Source: Mycobacterium sp. 852002-51961_SCH5331710 (GTDB lineage Bacteria; Actinomycetota; Actinomycetes; Mycobacteriales; Mycobacteriaceae). Taken from it: DNA of 64,000 bases. Position numbers and translations under genes: made by a program. The notes beneath the pieces were generated by a model that did not search any database, was not told the DNA's origin, and saw nothing but the letters and a program-made list of their open reading frames with translations. Each line of letters opens with the position of its first letter. Position 1 is the first letter of the stretch. Positions 59,559 to 63,971 of this stretch are shown here, piece after piece. Location of the stretch: NCBI RefSeq assembly GCF_001665535.1, contig NZ_LZSQ01000020.1:16644-80643 (forward strand), in the 5' to 3' direction.

Positions 59559-61622
59559 TCAGGAGGCCCGAGGCGTTGCGCTTGTGACGCCTTGTCGTTT
59601 GTCATCGAATTCGATGCCCTCCCCGATCAGCATCTCCATTGGATCGCGAGTGTCGGACGGGTCATGCCACTGGAACTTGAAGCTGATGGACCCATCACCG
59701 CTGAGGACGCGGTAAGCGTTCGTTACCGCGGGGTCGTGGGCGATGTGGTTTGCGGTCGGCTGTGCCGCCGTTCCTGCGAGTTCGGCTAGGTCGCCGTAGG
59801 ACGTCCAAGAGCCTGCCGGGAGCGCTGCGACGGCATCGTCGACGCGTGTCCAGTCGAACCCAGAGCGCGCGGTCACAACCCCCGGCACAGGTGCCGACCA
59901 CAGCGCGATTGCAGCTTCGGCGAGCACCTGCGAACGCTTCTGAATTTCGTCGACTCCCCACTGAGAAGCGGCGGCGAGATGCTCGTTGAGTTTGAGGTCG
60001 GAGTCCTGCAGGATCTCCTGCTTACGCTCAAAAAGCTGGTTCGAGAGCTTCGAGTTCCATGCCGTTAGCGTCAGATTTCCTAGCGTGTGGCCGAGGCGCT
60101 CGAAGACCTCGCGCGGATCATGTCCGGCATCGACCAGTTGCTTCTTCCAGCCGTCACTGAGCGTCTGCGGCATGACGTGTTCGATCGAGAGCTTGGCAGA
60201 GTCGAAGTCGAGATCGACCTCGGCTCGCAGGTGCGATTCCAGGCGCTGCAGAACCAATCGCTGCTGGTGCGCTCGCCCATTCGAGTAGTAGTGCACGGTG
60301 GCGATCCCATCGCGGACACGATCGTCGTCGGGCCACCGTTTGTCGCGAGACAGCTCGCGACGCAGCGCCACGTCAATCGGCTCACCCTGCGGAAGGTTGC
60401 CGATCACTGCAATGAAGAGCCGGTTCAGGACGTTCGTCGGTACATCGACAACGTAGCGCCTGACGATGAAGGACTCGATGGCTTCGAGGCAAGACTCAGC
60501 TTGCGCAGTGGTGGCGCGGCCGGCGTCGACTTCGGCATAGATGTGCAACAGCAACGGATAGGTTGTGCCGGCGCCCCAGCCACGCAAGAAAGCCAAATGC
60601 CTCAACGCCTTCTTGCTGAGACCGAGATCAGGTGCCGTGGAGTTCGGGTCTGCCGGTTGCAGGAACAGCGAGTAGTAGGCGCCTCTTCGCGCGAGCCTTT
60701 TGACGTGATCTTCGAGGAAATCGAGATCCGCTGCTGACGGTTCGAGGCGACTTCGCGCCGCTCGGTACACATCGCCTTGCTTGACGAAATCCCCCGTCGA
60801 CTGGAGATCATCCCGAACAAGCCCCTCCAGGCCCTCCACTCCCAGTGCCTTTTCGAGAGGACGCCAGTGCTGCGTGTAGACCGTGTTCGAGCGCGGCCCC
60901 AACGCCATGAACAGGTAATTGCGCAACAGGTCGGATTGCGTCAGTCCGACGCCCGTCGCGTTTATCGACTCGAAGATCTTGTGGGGTCGCTCGCCCTCGG
61001 AAACAGTCACGAAGACGAGCGCCAACCGGTCACCGATCGTCGTCGCGAGCCGTTCCGGGACCAGCTCGCCAGCCTCGCGAAGAGCGCTGATCTTGCGCTG
61101 GAAGAATCGGTAGGCGTTCACGATCGCGCTATGTCCGGACACGTTGGCCAGGTCGGTCAGCACGCTCCAGTACGGAGCAGCGTCTTGGTCGCCCGGTACA
61201 AGACGCGCCCACCTCGCCGACCCCTTCGGCTCCGTGTCGTTGATTAGGTACTTCTTATTCAGCCGGTCGAATTGCTCAAGATCGTCGAGAGCCGCGACGT
61301 CCCGCAACGCCGCGAGGGCGATAGACAATGTCGTCAGGCGCTGCTGACCGTCGACGACGCGGAACTCGCGGAAGTCATGCAGGGGGTCGGCGTCCTTCTC
61401 GACCGCCACGATGCTGCCGATGAAGTGCTTTGGGATCGCCGTCCCCGCCGCGAGCGCTCGGTCTTGTTCGGCAATGTCTTGCCACAAGTCTTCTTGCTGA
61501 CCCGTCTTCCACCGGTAGTGCCGCTGATACAGCGGAACTTGAAACTGGCGATCCTGGGTCATCAGATCGCGGAACGTCCCCTCCTTGGCGCGCATCTGAC
61601 GCACGATAGTCGTCCCCGGCAT
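59559..61622 (-). CDS. GmrSD-type nuclease (DUF262 + DUF1524) fused to an alkyltransferase-like domain
   Basis: A 687-aa defence-type protein. N-terminal DUF262: FQVPLYQRHYRW and the NTP-binding loop VVDGQQRLTTL near residue 93. Central helices lead to DUF1524 with its His-Me finger nuclease: IEHVMPQ (His482) and GNLTLTAWNSKLSN. The last ~90 residues resemble O6-alkylguanine alkyltransferase-like proteins (LPAGSWTSYGDLAELAG, then AYRVLSGDGSIS), but the PCHRV site reads NAYRV, with Ala636 at the Cys place. ATG 61622 or ATG 61595 may start it. Type IV restriction of modified DNA is the likely role. Confidence 0.85.
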   Translation of the reverse strand: MPGTTIVRQMRAKEGTFRDLMTQDRQFQVPLYQRHYRWKTGQQEDLWQDIAEQDRALAAGTAIPKHFIGSIVAVEKDADPLHDFREFRVVDGQQRLTTLSIALAALRDVAALDDLEQFDRLNKKYLINDTEPKGSARWARLVPGDQDAAPYWSVLTDLANVSGHSAIVNAYRFFQRKISALREAGELVPERLATTIGDRLALVFVTVSEGERPHKIFESINATGVGLTQSDLLRNYLFMALGPRSNTVYTQHWRPLEKALGVEGLEGLVRDDLQSTGDFVKQGDVYRAARSRLEPSAADLDFLEDHVKRLARRGAYYSLFLQPADPNSTAPDLGLSKKALRHLAFLRGWGAGTTYPLLLHIYAEVDAGRATTAQAESCLEAIESFIVRRYVVDVPTNVLNRLFIAVIGNLPQGEPIDVALRRELSRDKRWPDDDRVRDGIATVHYYSNGRAHQQRLVLQRLESHLRAEVDLDFDSAKLSIEHVMPQTLSDGWKKQLVDAGHDPREVFERLGHTLGNLTLTAWNSKLSNQLFERKQEILQDSDLKLNEHLAAASQWGVDEIQKRSQVLAEAAIALWSAPVPGVVTARSGFDWTRVDDAVAALPAGSWTSYGDLAELAGTAAQPTANHIAHDPAVTNAYRVLSGDGSISFKFQWHDPSDTRDPMEMLIGEGIEFDDKRQGVTSATPRAS

Positions 61623-61837: not shown

Positions 61838-63484
61838 ATGCTTCCCGGTGACAGCGTTTCGCAGCGGAAGGCTCGCGGCGCCTTCTTTACGCCAGTTCCC
61901 GTAGCGCGTTTCCTCGTCGACTGGGCCGTCCAGAGCCCAGATGACGCCGTTCTGGAGCCGTCCTGCGGCGAGGCTGTTTTCCTGCACGAAATCGGCCGAC
62001 GAGGTGACCACTCTGGCCCTCTAGTTGGAGTTGAGCTGCACAAGAGTTCCGCCGCGGAATCGGAGCGAAGCCTGCGCGCTAGTGGAATCGATGCGACCGT
62101 CCATGCGCGTGACTTCTTCGCTCACTCAGAACTTGGCACGTACGACGCGGTGGTCGGAAACCCGCCCTACGTCCGGTACCAAGCCTTTGCCGGAGAATCA
62201 CGTGCACGAGCCCGAGAGGCCGCCCTCCGCGCGGGTGTCGCATTGTCTAACCTCGCATCTTCGTGGGCGGCTTTCACGGTCCATTCCGCGTTGCACCTAA
62301 AAAGGGGCGGGCGGCTAGGGCTCGTTCTGCCAGCCGAACTTCTGACGGTCAATTATGCCGCCGGAGTTCGGCAGTACCTGATGGACCACTTCCGCTCGGT
62401 GGGTCTTGTGCTTTTCCATGAGCGAGTGTTCCCAGGCGTGTTAGAGGAAGTTGTTCTCCTTCTCGCCGACAGTTTCATCCCAGACGGTCACCACGGCGAT
62501 CCGCGCCATATGCATCTGTGGCAAGTACGAGACGCTGAAGGACTGGCGCAACTTTCCGCCTCGCGACGATGGACTCCGCCGAGTAAAGGGGCAAAATGGT
62601 CGGCTGGACTGATGTCAGCAGCCGGCATGCGTGCATTCGACGCAGTTGTTGGCAGCGACGGGTTCACTCGGTTGGAGACCTGGGGTGACACAACGCTCGG
62701 GATGGTCACAGGCAGCAACCAGTTCTTCACTTTGTCCCCCGCCAAGGCAGGGGCACTTGGCTTAGAGACAACTGATCTTATCTCGCTGTCGCCTCCAGGC
62801 TCTCGTCACTTGCGCGGCCTGGGGTTGACGGAGAAGGCGCTGCGCGAGCTGGGCGCGAGCGGCCAATCGACCCATCTTTTTAGGCCGGCCAATGAACCCT
62901 CGGCGGCCGCTTGGAGCTATATCCAATCGGGCGAAGATCTAGACGTCCACCAAGCCTACAAATGCCGAGTTCGCACCCCATGGTGGCGGGTGCCGTATCT
63001 CCGCCCAGCCGACCTCTTCTTGACATACATGAATGCAGATACGCCGCGACTGACGAGCAATGGAGCTGGCGCTCACCACTTGAACTCAGTCCACGGCGTA
63101 TACCTTCGAAAAGGTCTGAAGGCGGACGGCATGAACCTCCTGCCGATCGCATCGCTTAATTCGATTACCCTGCTGGGCGCCGAGACTGTGGGGCGAGCCT
63201 ACGGGGGCGGCATGTTGAAGATCGAGCCTCGAGAAGCCGATCACCTTCCAGTGCCGTCGCCAACTTTGGTCCGCCGGAACGCGGAAGCTCTCCGCCGTAT
63301 TCGGCCTGCTGTCGCAGCTCAGCTCCGCGCAGGGCGCCTACTCGACGCAGTTGCGTTAGTCGATGAGGTGCTGCTTACTGGTTCGATGGGCTTAAACCGG
63401 AAGCGTCTTCAGGCCATACGGCAAGACCATGCAGACCTCGCCGCCCGTCGCATTGCGCGGGGGAAGATCAACGGTGGCAAGTAA
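61838..63484 (+). CDS. gamma-class N6-adenine DNA methyltransferase
   Basis: A 548-aa type II restriction-modification methylase of the TaqI/Eco57I-like class. SAM motif VLEPSCGEAVFLHEIG (about residues 40-55), catalytic motif IV NPPY at 108-111, and a C-terminal target-recognition part that includes WWRVPYLRPADLFLTYMNAD. N-terminal KARGAFFTPVPVARFLVDW is typical. Divergent from the GmrSD-like gene across 215 bp. It overlaps the next gene by 11 bp. Confidence 0.9.
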   Translation: MLPGDSVSQRKARGAFFTPVPVARFLVDWAVQSPDDAVLEPSCGEAVFLHEIGRRGDHSGPLVGVELHKSSAAESERSLRASGIDATVHARDFFAHSELGTYDAVVGNPPYVRYQAFAGESRARAREAALRAGVALSNLASSWAAFTVHSALHLKRGGRLGLVLPAELLTVNYAAGVRQYLMDHFRSVGLVLFHERVFPGVLEEVVLLLADSFIPDGHHGDPRHMHLWQVRDAEGLAQLSASRRWTPPSKGAKWSAGLMSAAGMRAFDAVVGSDGFTRLETWGDTTLGMVTGSNQFFTLSPAKAGALGLETTDLISLSPPGSRHLRGLGLTEKALRELGASGQSTHLFRPANEPSAAAWSYIQSGEDLDVHQAYKCRVRTPWWRVPYLRPADLFLTYMNADTPRLTSNGAGAHHLNSVHGVYLRKGLKADGMNLLPIASLNSITLLGAETVGRAYGGGMLKIEPREADHLPVPSPTLVRRNAEALRRIRPAVAAQLRAGRLLDAVALVDEVLLTGSMGLNRKRLQAIRQDHADLAARRIARGKINGGK

Positions 63485-63971
63485 ACCCAACGCCAAGGCA
63501 CAAGCGTGGCCGCTATTCGACGCGATTGTTCACCAATCACCGCTGAAGGGCAGCAACCCGTGGATGCCAGACGGCACATTCGCCCCTGACTACGAGACGT
63601 TGCGCCAACTGCTTGCGGTGCCGTTGCAACTCGGCGCCGAGACCCGTTCAGGCGTCCCAGCGCTCGCCATCGACGTATGGATCGCGTACGAGCTGCGACG
63701 CGCTGGCCTCGACCCGGATTCAGTTTGGCCACGAGCCGAGGCGCCTCGAGTCGTGGATCGCGACGTGCTCAACTTCGTTCGAGCTGTCCCAAAGACGTTG
63801 GGCCGCGATGAGTTGTTGTCGCGACTGCGGAGAGGCGGCGGCACCGGTGGAGTGGGAACTGCTTCGGCAAACATCGCTGGCAAGAATTACTTCAAACAAG
63901 TCGACGTAATCATGTCCTCATGGTGTCAACGCCGGTTGAAATTTGACCCCTTCTCAACGGTTGAAAATTGA
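63474..63971 (+). pseudogene. restriction-endonuclease-like gene cut by an insertion sequence
   Basis: From GTG 63474 an intact frame of 150 codons (AWPLFDAIVHQSPLKGSNPW to NYFKQVDVIMSSW) continues to about 63923, then 15 codons of insertion-sequence DNA and a stop. Position behind and overlapping the methyltransferase makes it the cognate endonuclease. The fragment has the look of XamI-type enzymes, but that is a memory-based guess. Cut in this way the product should be inactive; the rest may lie beyond the window. Confidence 0.75.

Follow-up and report, generated by a model that had tools for sequence, protein, structure and literature searches.

A cysteine-free alkyltransferase-fold tail on a mycobacterial GmrSD-family nuclease as a candidate sensor of modified DNA

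In a 64,000-nucleotide stretch of the genome of Mycobacterium sp. 852002-51961_SCH5331710 (contig NZ_LZSQ01000020.1, positions 16,644 to 80,643; hereafter, the window), we analyzed a gene whose product is a predicted GmrSD-family (Type IV) nuclease with an intact core and a C-terminal tail that has the predicted fold of O6-alkylguanine-DNA alkyltransferases (AGTs). We lean slightly towards the interpretation that this tail is a non-repairing sensor, a homologue of the alkyltransferase-like proteins (ATLs) without the reactive cysteine and the arginine finger, which would guide the nuclease to phage DNA that carries modifications. All the data are most economically explained by an AGT-fold sensor that several effectors have acquired and that, in this protein, directs the GmrSD core to modified DNA or licenses it there.

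An ATL-related tail without the reactive cysteine or the arginine finger

Both its sequence and its predicted fold, that of the AGT C-terminal domain, place the tail within the AGT/ATL superfamily. In Pfam, the DNA_binding_1 family (DNA-binding domain of O6-methylguanine methyltransferases) matches residues 593-651 at 26.8 bits, 0.2 under the cut-off, and the near-identical protein P0002 at 27.2 bits. An earlier note, made from the letters of this DNA, had claimed an AGT/ATL fold at the C-terminus, a reactive cysteine replaced by alanine (NAYRV for PCHRV) and a fusion to a GmrSD nuclease. Structure prediction and sequence agree on the fold, Ala636 occupies the cysteine position, and both core domains score above their cut-offs with their motifs intact.

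To describe the family, we aligned 185 defense-associated tails, which include near copies and are not independent, with four canonical sequences, namely Atl1 and, from the host genome, two AGTs and an ATL. Cysteine is found at the reactive position in 0 of the 183 tails with a letter there, most of which have alanine, and the ATL-type tryptophan appears in a single one (1/183), the McrB-type tail of L195. The position of the arginine finger, occupied by Gln621 in the window, holds arginine in only 4 of 184 tails (L019, L079, L081 and L082) and mostly glutamine or valine in the others, as opposed to arginine in all four canonical sequences. The base-flipping tyrosine (Tyr609) is kept in 177 of 184 tails. 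Three aromatic residues are characteristic of the tails: Trp606, present in 184/184 and in 0/4 canonical sequences, Phe650 (Phe in 174/183) and Trp652 (Trp in 176/182), all more strongly conserved than the helix-turn-helix positions around 619-629. Judging from their positions in the alignment, these residues may line the pocket.

According to a review (PMC10779285, cited, as are the other papers below, from excerpts of its text), both AGTs and ATLs conserve the finger and the tyrosine. Because the arginine finger is absent, we do not class the tail as an ATL; it is an ATL relative that fails one defining ATL feature. The claim that the domain, being ATL-like, flips and recognizes bulky bases is therefore weaker than the earlier note had it: the fold and the missing cysteine are confirmed, but flipping in the manner of ATLs does not follow, because the finger conserved by AGTs and ATLs is lost, and the ATL tryptophan is nearly always missing as well. 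A repair role for the tail was rejected, given that cysteine was found in no tail read and that two AGTs and one ATL are encoded elsewhere in the genome.

The nuclease core and the state of the window copy

The product has the hallmarks of the GmrSD family, with both domains above the curated cut-offs and both the DGQQR and the HNH-type motifs present (Table 1). DGQQR is associated with hydrolysis of nucleoside triphosphates (NTPs) in DndI and SspE (PMC11662687). The core also contains a P-x-Y-Q patch (P30-L-Y32-Q33), and PADLOC names it Orf5. The whole predicted structure best matches DndI (9jfl, E 2.5e-16), followed by SspE and BrxU; 7drr, 7drs and 6jiv are matched as well.

Table 1. Features of the GmrSD-type gene and its surroundings (window positions; loci are given for the kinds of 5' neighbor)
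Feature	Position or locus	Strand	Remarks
GmrSD-type gene with AGT-fold tail	59559..61622	-	687 residues encoded
GmrSD_N (DUF262), residues 19-238	60909..61568	-	PF03235, 117.6 bits vs cut-off 33.2
DGQQR motif, residues 91-95	61338..61352	-	D91-R95 unchanged in all 68 sequences of alignment A1
GmrSD_C (DUF1524, HNH-type nuclease), residues 430-569	59916..60335	-	PF07510, 98.9 bits vs cut-off 23
EHVMPQ (481-486), HNH-type motif with His482	60165..60182	-	E481, H482 and P485 unchanged in all 68 sequences of A1
AGT/ATL-fold tail, residues 590-672	59607..59855	-	sequence and predicted fold
WTSY (606-609)	59796..59807	-	Trp606; Tyr609 aligns with the base-flipping tyrosine of AGTs and ATLs
Gln621 at arginine-finger position	59760..59762	-	column alignment
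NAYRV (635-639) replacing PCHRV/PWHRV	59706..59720	-	Ala636 at cysteine position
F650-Q-W652, family-specific aromatics, in the stretch aligning after the active-site motif	59667..59675	-	column alignment
Final 13 codons and stop, register differing from close relatives	59559..59600	-	compared with P0002, P0003, P0005 and L009-L011
Divergent neighbor, Eco57I-type DNA methyltransferase	61838..63484	+	PF22837, PF02384, PF07669; PADLOC MTase_II 632 bits; NPPY at residue 108
180-aa frame overlapping the methyltransferase end	63429..63971	+	stops 29 bases before contig end
5' neighbor kind 1, Eco57I-type methyltransferase	window
5' neighbor kind 2, Type ISP	L009, L010
5' neighbor kind 3, 1220-aa N6_Mtase/Eco57I protein	L011
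5' neighbor kind 4, three-gene set, Eco57I-type methylase and ResIII protein	L131, L134
5' neighbor kind 5, MmeI-like enzyme	L128, L129

The protein is 94-95% identical to the Mycobacterium relatives L009-L011, and sequence comparison puts the start of the relatives, MRAKEG, at window position 61595. At the other end, the register is lost over the last codons, and the conserved C-terminal end (QRL..EL..LL), intact in relatives, is not encoded in the window copy, owing to either a draft-assembly error or a real change. P0027, P0076 and P0080 likewise have disturbed ends, and the frame of L083 is broken. In the window copy, the AGT-fold core (to residue 672) is left untouched. Relative to L009-L011, the ratio of nonsynonymous to synonymous substitution rates (dN/dS) is 0.054-0.056 for the core of the protein and 0.028-0.042 for the tail. 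The out-of-register end could be taken to indicate a decaying gene without function, but the low dN/dS of both parts and the intact AGT-fold core argue otherwise, an assembly error would give the same picture, and we consider decay exceedingly improbable.

Spread of the tail across unrelated effectors

A database search with the tail as query retrieved 80 proteins at E<=0.001 among 794 candidates, comprising 77 proteins with GmrSD_C and 3 McrB-like ones. P0079 matches McrB structures with E 5e-48. When a McrB-type tail served as query, 29 proteins were found, including additional McrB-like proteins (P0082-P0084, the last from Planomonospora alba) and P0085, which, besides the tail, shows weak similarity to Mrr_N, at 17.0 bits against a cut-off of 29.5, and to a HEPN family, at 17.3 bits against 28.4. 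At the level of the class, 32 of 394 genomes contain a tail match at E<=1e-11; we assign these matches to GmrSD (17), GmrSD with a RAMA domain (3), NucS-like (5), McrB-like (4), HEPN-like (1) and short or broken proteins (2), with L190 and L196 assigned from sequence and not from a family scan. The RRNNIAH motif, which we take to be a HEPN motif, is present in both P0085 and L191.

In a tree of 80 rows (103 columns, which is few; 55 GmrSD sequences thinned at 75% identity; only four canonical sequences; 33 of 77 inner branches open), the 76 defense tails are separated from the canonical sequences (branch value 98). The tree joins McrB with HEPN tails (96) and NucS with GmrSD-RAMA tails (95), and requires at least 3 changes of effector. 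L092 and L093 have tails 49-51% identical to that of the window, while the compared parts of their cores are 27-30% identical. Among the 25 class-level matches to the core, 15 extend through the whole tail, 3 (the window's own is one of them) stop inside it, and 7 stop short of it. The tail thus appears to be a portable module, occurring on McrB-type proteins and, by weaker matches, on NucS-like and HEPN-like ones, and it is likely to be a portable sensor of DNA marks. The built-in sensor that the earlier note envisaged thereby gains support that was not then available, from McrB-type and tentatively from NucS-like and HEPN-like proteins, even though base flipping as stated there has become weaker.

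Further variation among the tails was observed. A C-x-x-C pair, possibly a metal site, immediately precedes the motif that replaces PCHRV in 9 of 9 tails of GmrSD-RAMA and NucS-like proteins (L092, L093, L189, L190, L196-L200), and is absent from the window tail. The McrB-like protein of L195 (2444-4603, + strand) retains WHRV, the canonical ATL motif, without the arginine finger, and this tail may connect ATLs with the defense tails. In many members from Streptomyces, Micromonospora and other genera (L013-L016, L019-L021 and others), an extra C-terminal stretch follows the tail, in Streptomyces with the pattern GIWP..LYP..G.AEVVFQYL; the mycobacterial copies are without it, and no Pfam family clearly matches such a stretch in P0077 and P0075.

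Genomic neighborhood

The gene is divergent from an Eco57I-type DNA methyltransferase with an NPPY motif, indicative of the N6-adenine type; the 180-aa frame that overlaps the end of the latter gave no match in family scans. Across the genus, 9 of 297 genomes match the protein at E<=1e-60. Eight of these, including that of the window, carry close full-length copies, and the ninth match (G568) is partial and 34% identical. In 8/8 close copies, the gene at the 5' end belongs to a restriction-modification (R-M) or methyltransferase set, of which there are five kinds (Table 1; in paired loci, one member was family-scanned and its partner matched by near-identical protein starts). All five match N6-adenine-type methylase families, the MmeI-like enzyme via the MmeI family, its N6_Mtase match falling short of the cut-off. 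A block of MMPL and TetR genes lies near four of the copies (window, L009, L131, L134), on the flank opposite the R-M genes, and the end of L010 matches this block too; therefore, at a single site this nuclease gene is found with three kinds of R-M sets. We dropped an R-M partnership as a general rule, because it holds for the close mycobacterial copies but not, judged by eye from the listed neighbors, for G568, and was rarely seen at other loci among the families listed. L012, the first member, does match Type I restriction helicases.

Beside the G568 relative (L135, 9279-11021, + strand), a 580-aa protein has a start that by eye resembles a macro domain, with transposase-like frames further on. 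In the genome that harbors the window, contig C43 (L136, 8-4632) encodes another protein with GmrSD_N but no GmrSD_C match; upstream of it are a helicase/MTES nuclease and a 128-aa protein that has no family match and contains RRLTTYSDLSTEL, which recalls the AGT-fold WTSYGDLAEL stretch.

Proposed mechanism and alternative explanations

Under the sensor interpretation, the tail would dock on DNA via its helix-turn-helix and hold the modified base in a pocket enlarged by the replacement of cysteine with alanine and walled by the new aromatic residues. Binding of the mark would license NTP hydrolysis through the DGQQR motif, followed by cutting by the HNH domain. The neighboring R-M system would kill unmodified phage DNA, and the GmrSD enzyme would kill DNA whose modification blocks R-M. 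A modified guanine such as dPreQ0 is a natural first candidate for the mark, because AGTs and ATLs read O6-substituted guanine (PMC10779285) and in the mycobacteriophage Rosebush dPreQ0 replaces ~28% of the G (PMC6884629). A broader proposition, which we put forward as rather doubtful, is that the tails constitute a family of modified-purine readers, with the AGT fold, the cysteine and finger lost and an aromatic wall gained, that serves as the shared sensor of at least 4 classes of actinobacterial defense (GmrSD, McrB, NucS-like and HEPN-like) and that, in GmrSD, broadens the targets of Type IV restriction beyond modified cytosine to include guanine or adenine modifications, for example, dPreQ0 or N6-substituted adenine.

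Several observations weigh against a sensor of modified bases. With the base-flipping arginine finger lost, a base-accepting pocket is conjectural, and F650/W652 are retained in only 5 of 10 McrB-type tails. The NucS-like assignment is tentative, with NucS_C matches under the cut-off of 24 in three of the four proteins scanned (21.2, 17.6 and 17.2 bits) and none in L197, and so is the HEPN-like assignment, which comes from the sub-threshold match of P0085 and the RRNNIAH motif, L191 having no HEPN match up to E 0.01 in the family scan. As for the partnership with R-M, no R-M gene was recognizable by eye among the listed neighbors of the partial relative in G568. Beyond the close mycobacterial copies, N6_Mtase was found in 1 of 75 upstream neighbors (the 77 found in 80 loci minus two mycobacterial ones), and helicases were few, among the 25 most frequent of 87 Pfam families, a count made on crude gene calls in which methylases of other families may be hidden outside those 25; likewise, of the 183 PADLOC models matched at these loci, the 25 commonest include none for R-M. 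Finally, we found no published experiment on any member in the open-licence literature without preprints, among the matches listed.

The core may also recognize the mark alone, given that BrxU reads modified cytosine with no such added domain described in the excerpts. The tail would then do no more than add a winged helix for DNA binding or dimer formation, an explanation compatible with the loss of both finger and cysteine, with an AGT helix-turn-helix that binds DNA without sequence preference (PMC10779285), with the 7 of 25 related cores that have no tail at that place, and with BrxU, which cuts several C5-modified cytosines by a mode of recognition that is stated to be unknown for BrxU and GmrSD alike (PMC12409352). 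A mere anchor would not obviously need W606, F650 and W652, which by alignment lie in or next to the stretches of the AGT pocket and are better kept than the helix-turn-helix itself, and we regard this explanation as unlikely, if deserving of real weight. Were the tail instead to read a self mark, for example, N6-methyladenine placed by the neighboring R-M, so as to license or restrain the nuclease in the manner of SspE and DndI, the fold matches of the whole protein to these two, the agreement of its P-x-Y-Q patch with that of DndI, which contains the sensing tyrosine, the N6-adenine-type families of all five mycobacterial neighbors and the RAMA domain of some tailed GmrSDs would be accounted for. 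Five different methylases would, however, probably leave different marks, unless the reader ignores sequence, and a methylase neighbor is rare outside the close mycobacterial copies. In a search limited to DndC, no match was found in the genome itself, with a weak control in that the model exceeded its cut-off in 0 of 14 control genomes; overall, a self-mark reader seems quite improbable. We judge it very improbable that the protein is a repair or surveillance nuclease in which the tail recognizes O6-alkylguanine damage and the HNH domain incises: the homology of the tail to ATLs and the ATL-endonuclease V (EndoV) fusions of archaea (PMC10779285) would fit, but the patchy presence of the gene in the genus, its R-M neighbors, the use of the tail by McrB-type proteins, the lost finger and the separate AGT and ATL genes of the same genome do not.

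The interest of a tail that acts as a sensor is that a separable lesion-reader-like domain of ~85 residues, found on unrelated effectors, opens the question of GmrSD recognition to direct testing. Should the marks be modified purines, immunity would have recruited a repair fold as a sensor, and phage purine modifications, dPreQ0 among them, would face a dedicated host counter. The tail would also offer a search handle for further defense genes in Actinobacteria.

Comparison with known systems

The fusion of GmrSD to the tail is not in itself new. The presence of PF01035 in GmrSD homologues is already in print (Machnicka et al. 2015, PMC4619093), in proteins combining DUF262, DUF1524 and DNA_binding_1, chiefly from Streptomyces species; the excerpts of that paper do not discuss a sensor role, the loss of cysteine and finger, or occurrence of the domain on McrB, NucS-like or HEPN-like proteins. 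No paper describing the loss of both cysteine and finger, or the sharing of the domain with McrB-type or other proteins, was found in the open-licence literature without preprints, among the matches listed. Small reader domains are also known as additions to Type IV nucleases; EVE is frequent on McrB and rare on GmrSD (PMC11090510, PMC7641849); EVE and RAMA readers resemble the tail in being small additions to such nucleases and differ in belonging to other domain families. The words alkyl, methylguanine and MGMT are absent from the main texts of these two papers.

With Schizosaccharomyces pombe Atl1 and the bacterial ATLs, the window tail shares the absence of the reactive cysteine and the retained base-flipping tyrosine; it has alanine in place of tryptophan, the tails have glutamine or valine in place of the finger, and the new W606 and F650/W652 as well as the nuclease fusion set them apart. 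The archaeal fusions likewise join an AGT or ATL domain to a nuclease, but there the nuclease is EndoV and the context repair (PMC10779285), whereas the nuclease domain of the window protein is GmrSD_C, and no EndoV match was found in Pfam up to E 1.

DndI and SspE, the best fold matches of the full protein, have the same two domains (DUF262 and DUF1524), the DGQQR motif and the P-x-Y-Q patch, and read phosphorothioate via an N-terminal tyrosine patch (PMC11662687); they differ in reading self marks and in working with dnd or ssp genes. BrxU and Eco94GmrSD share the nuclease core and its motifs and act on modified DNA. Their known targets are C5-modified cytosines, several of which, in the case of BrxU, are other than sugar-modified cytosine (PMC12409352, PMC13390438), such that part of the extended target range proposed in the earlier note is already covered by BrxU, and an AGT-fold tail is not described for them in these excerpts. 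BrxU adjoins BREX, with which its protection is complementary (PMC10952713), just as the window gene adjoins R-M genes.
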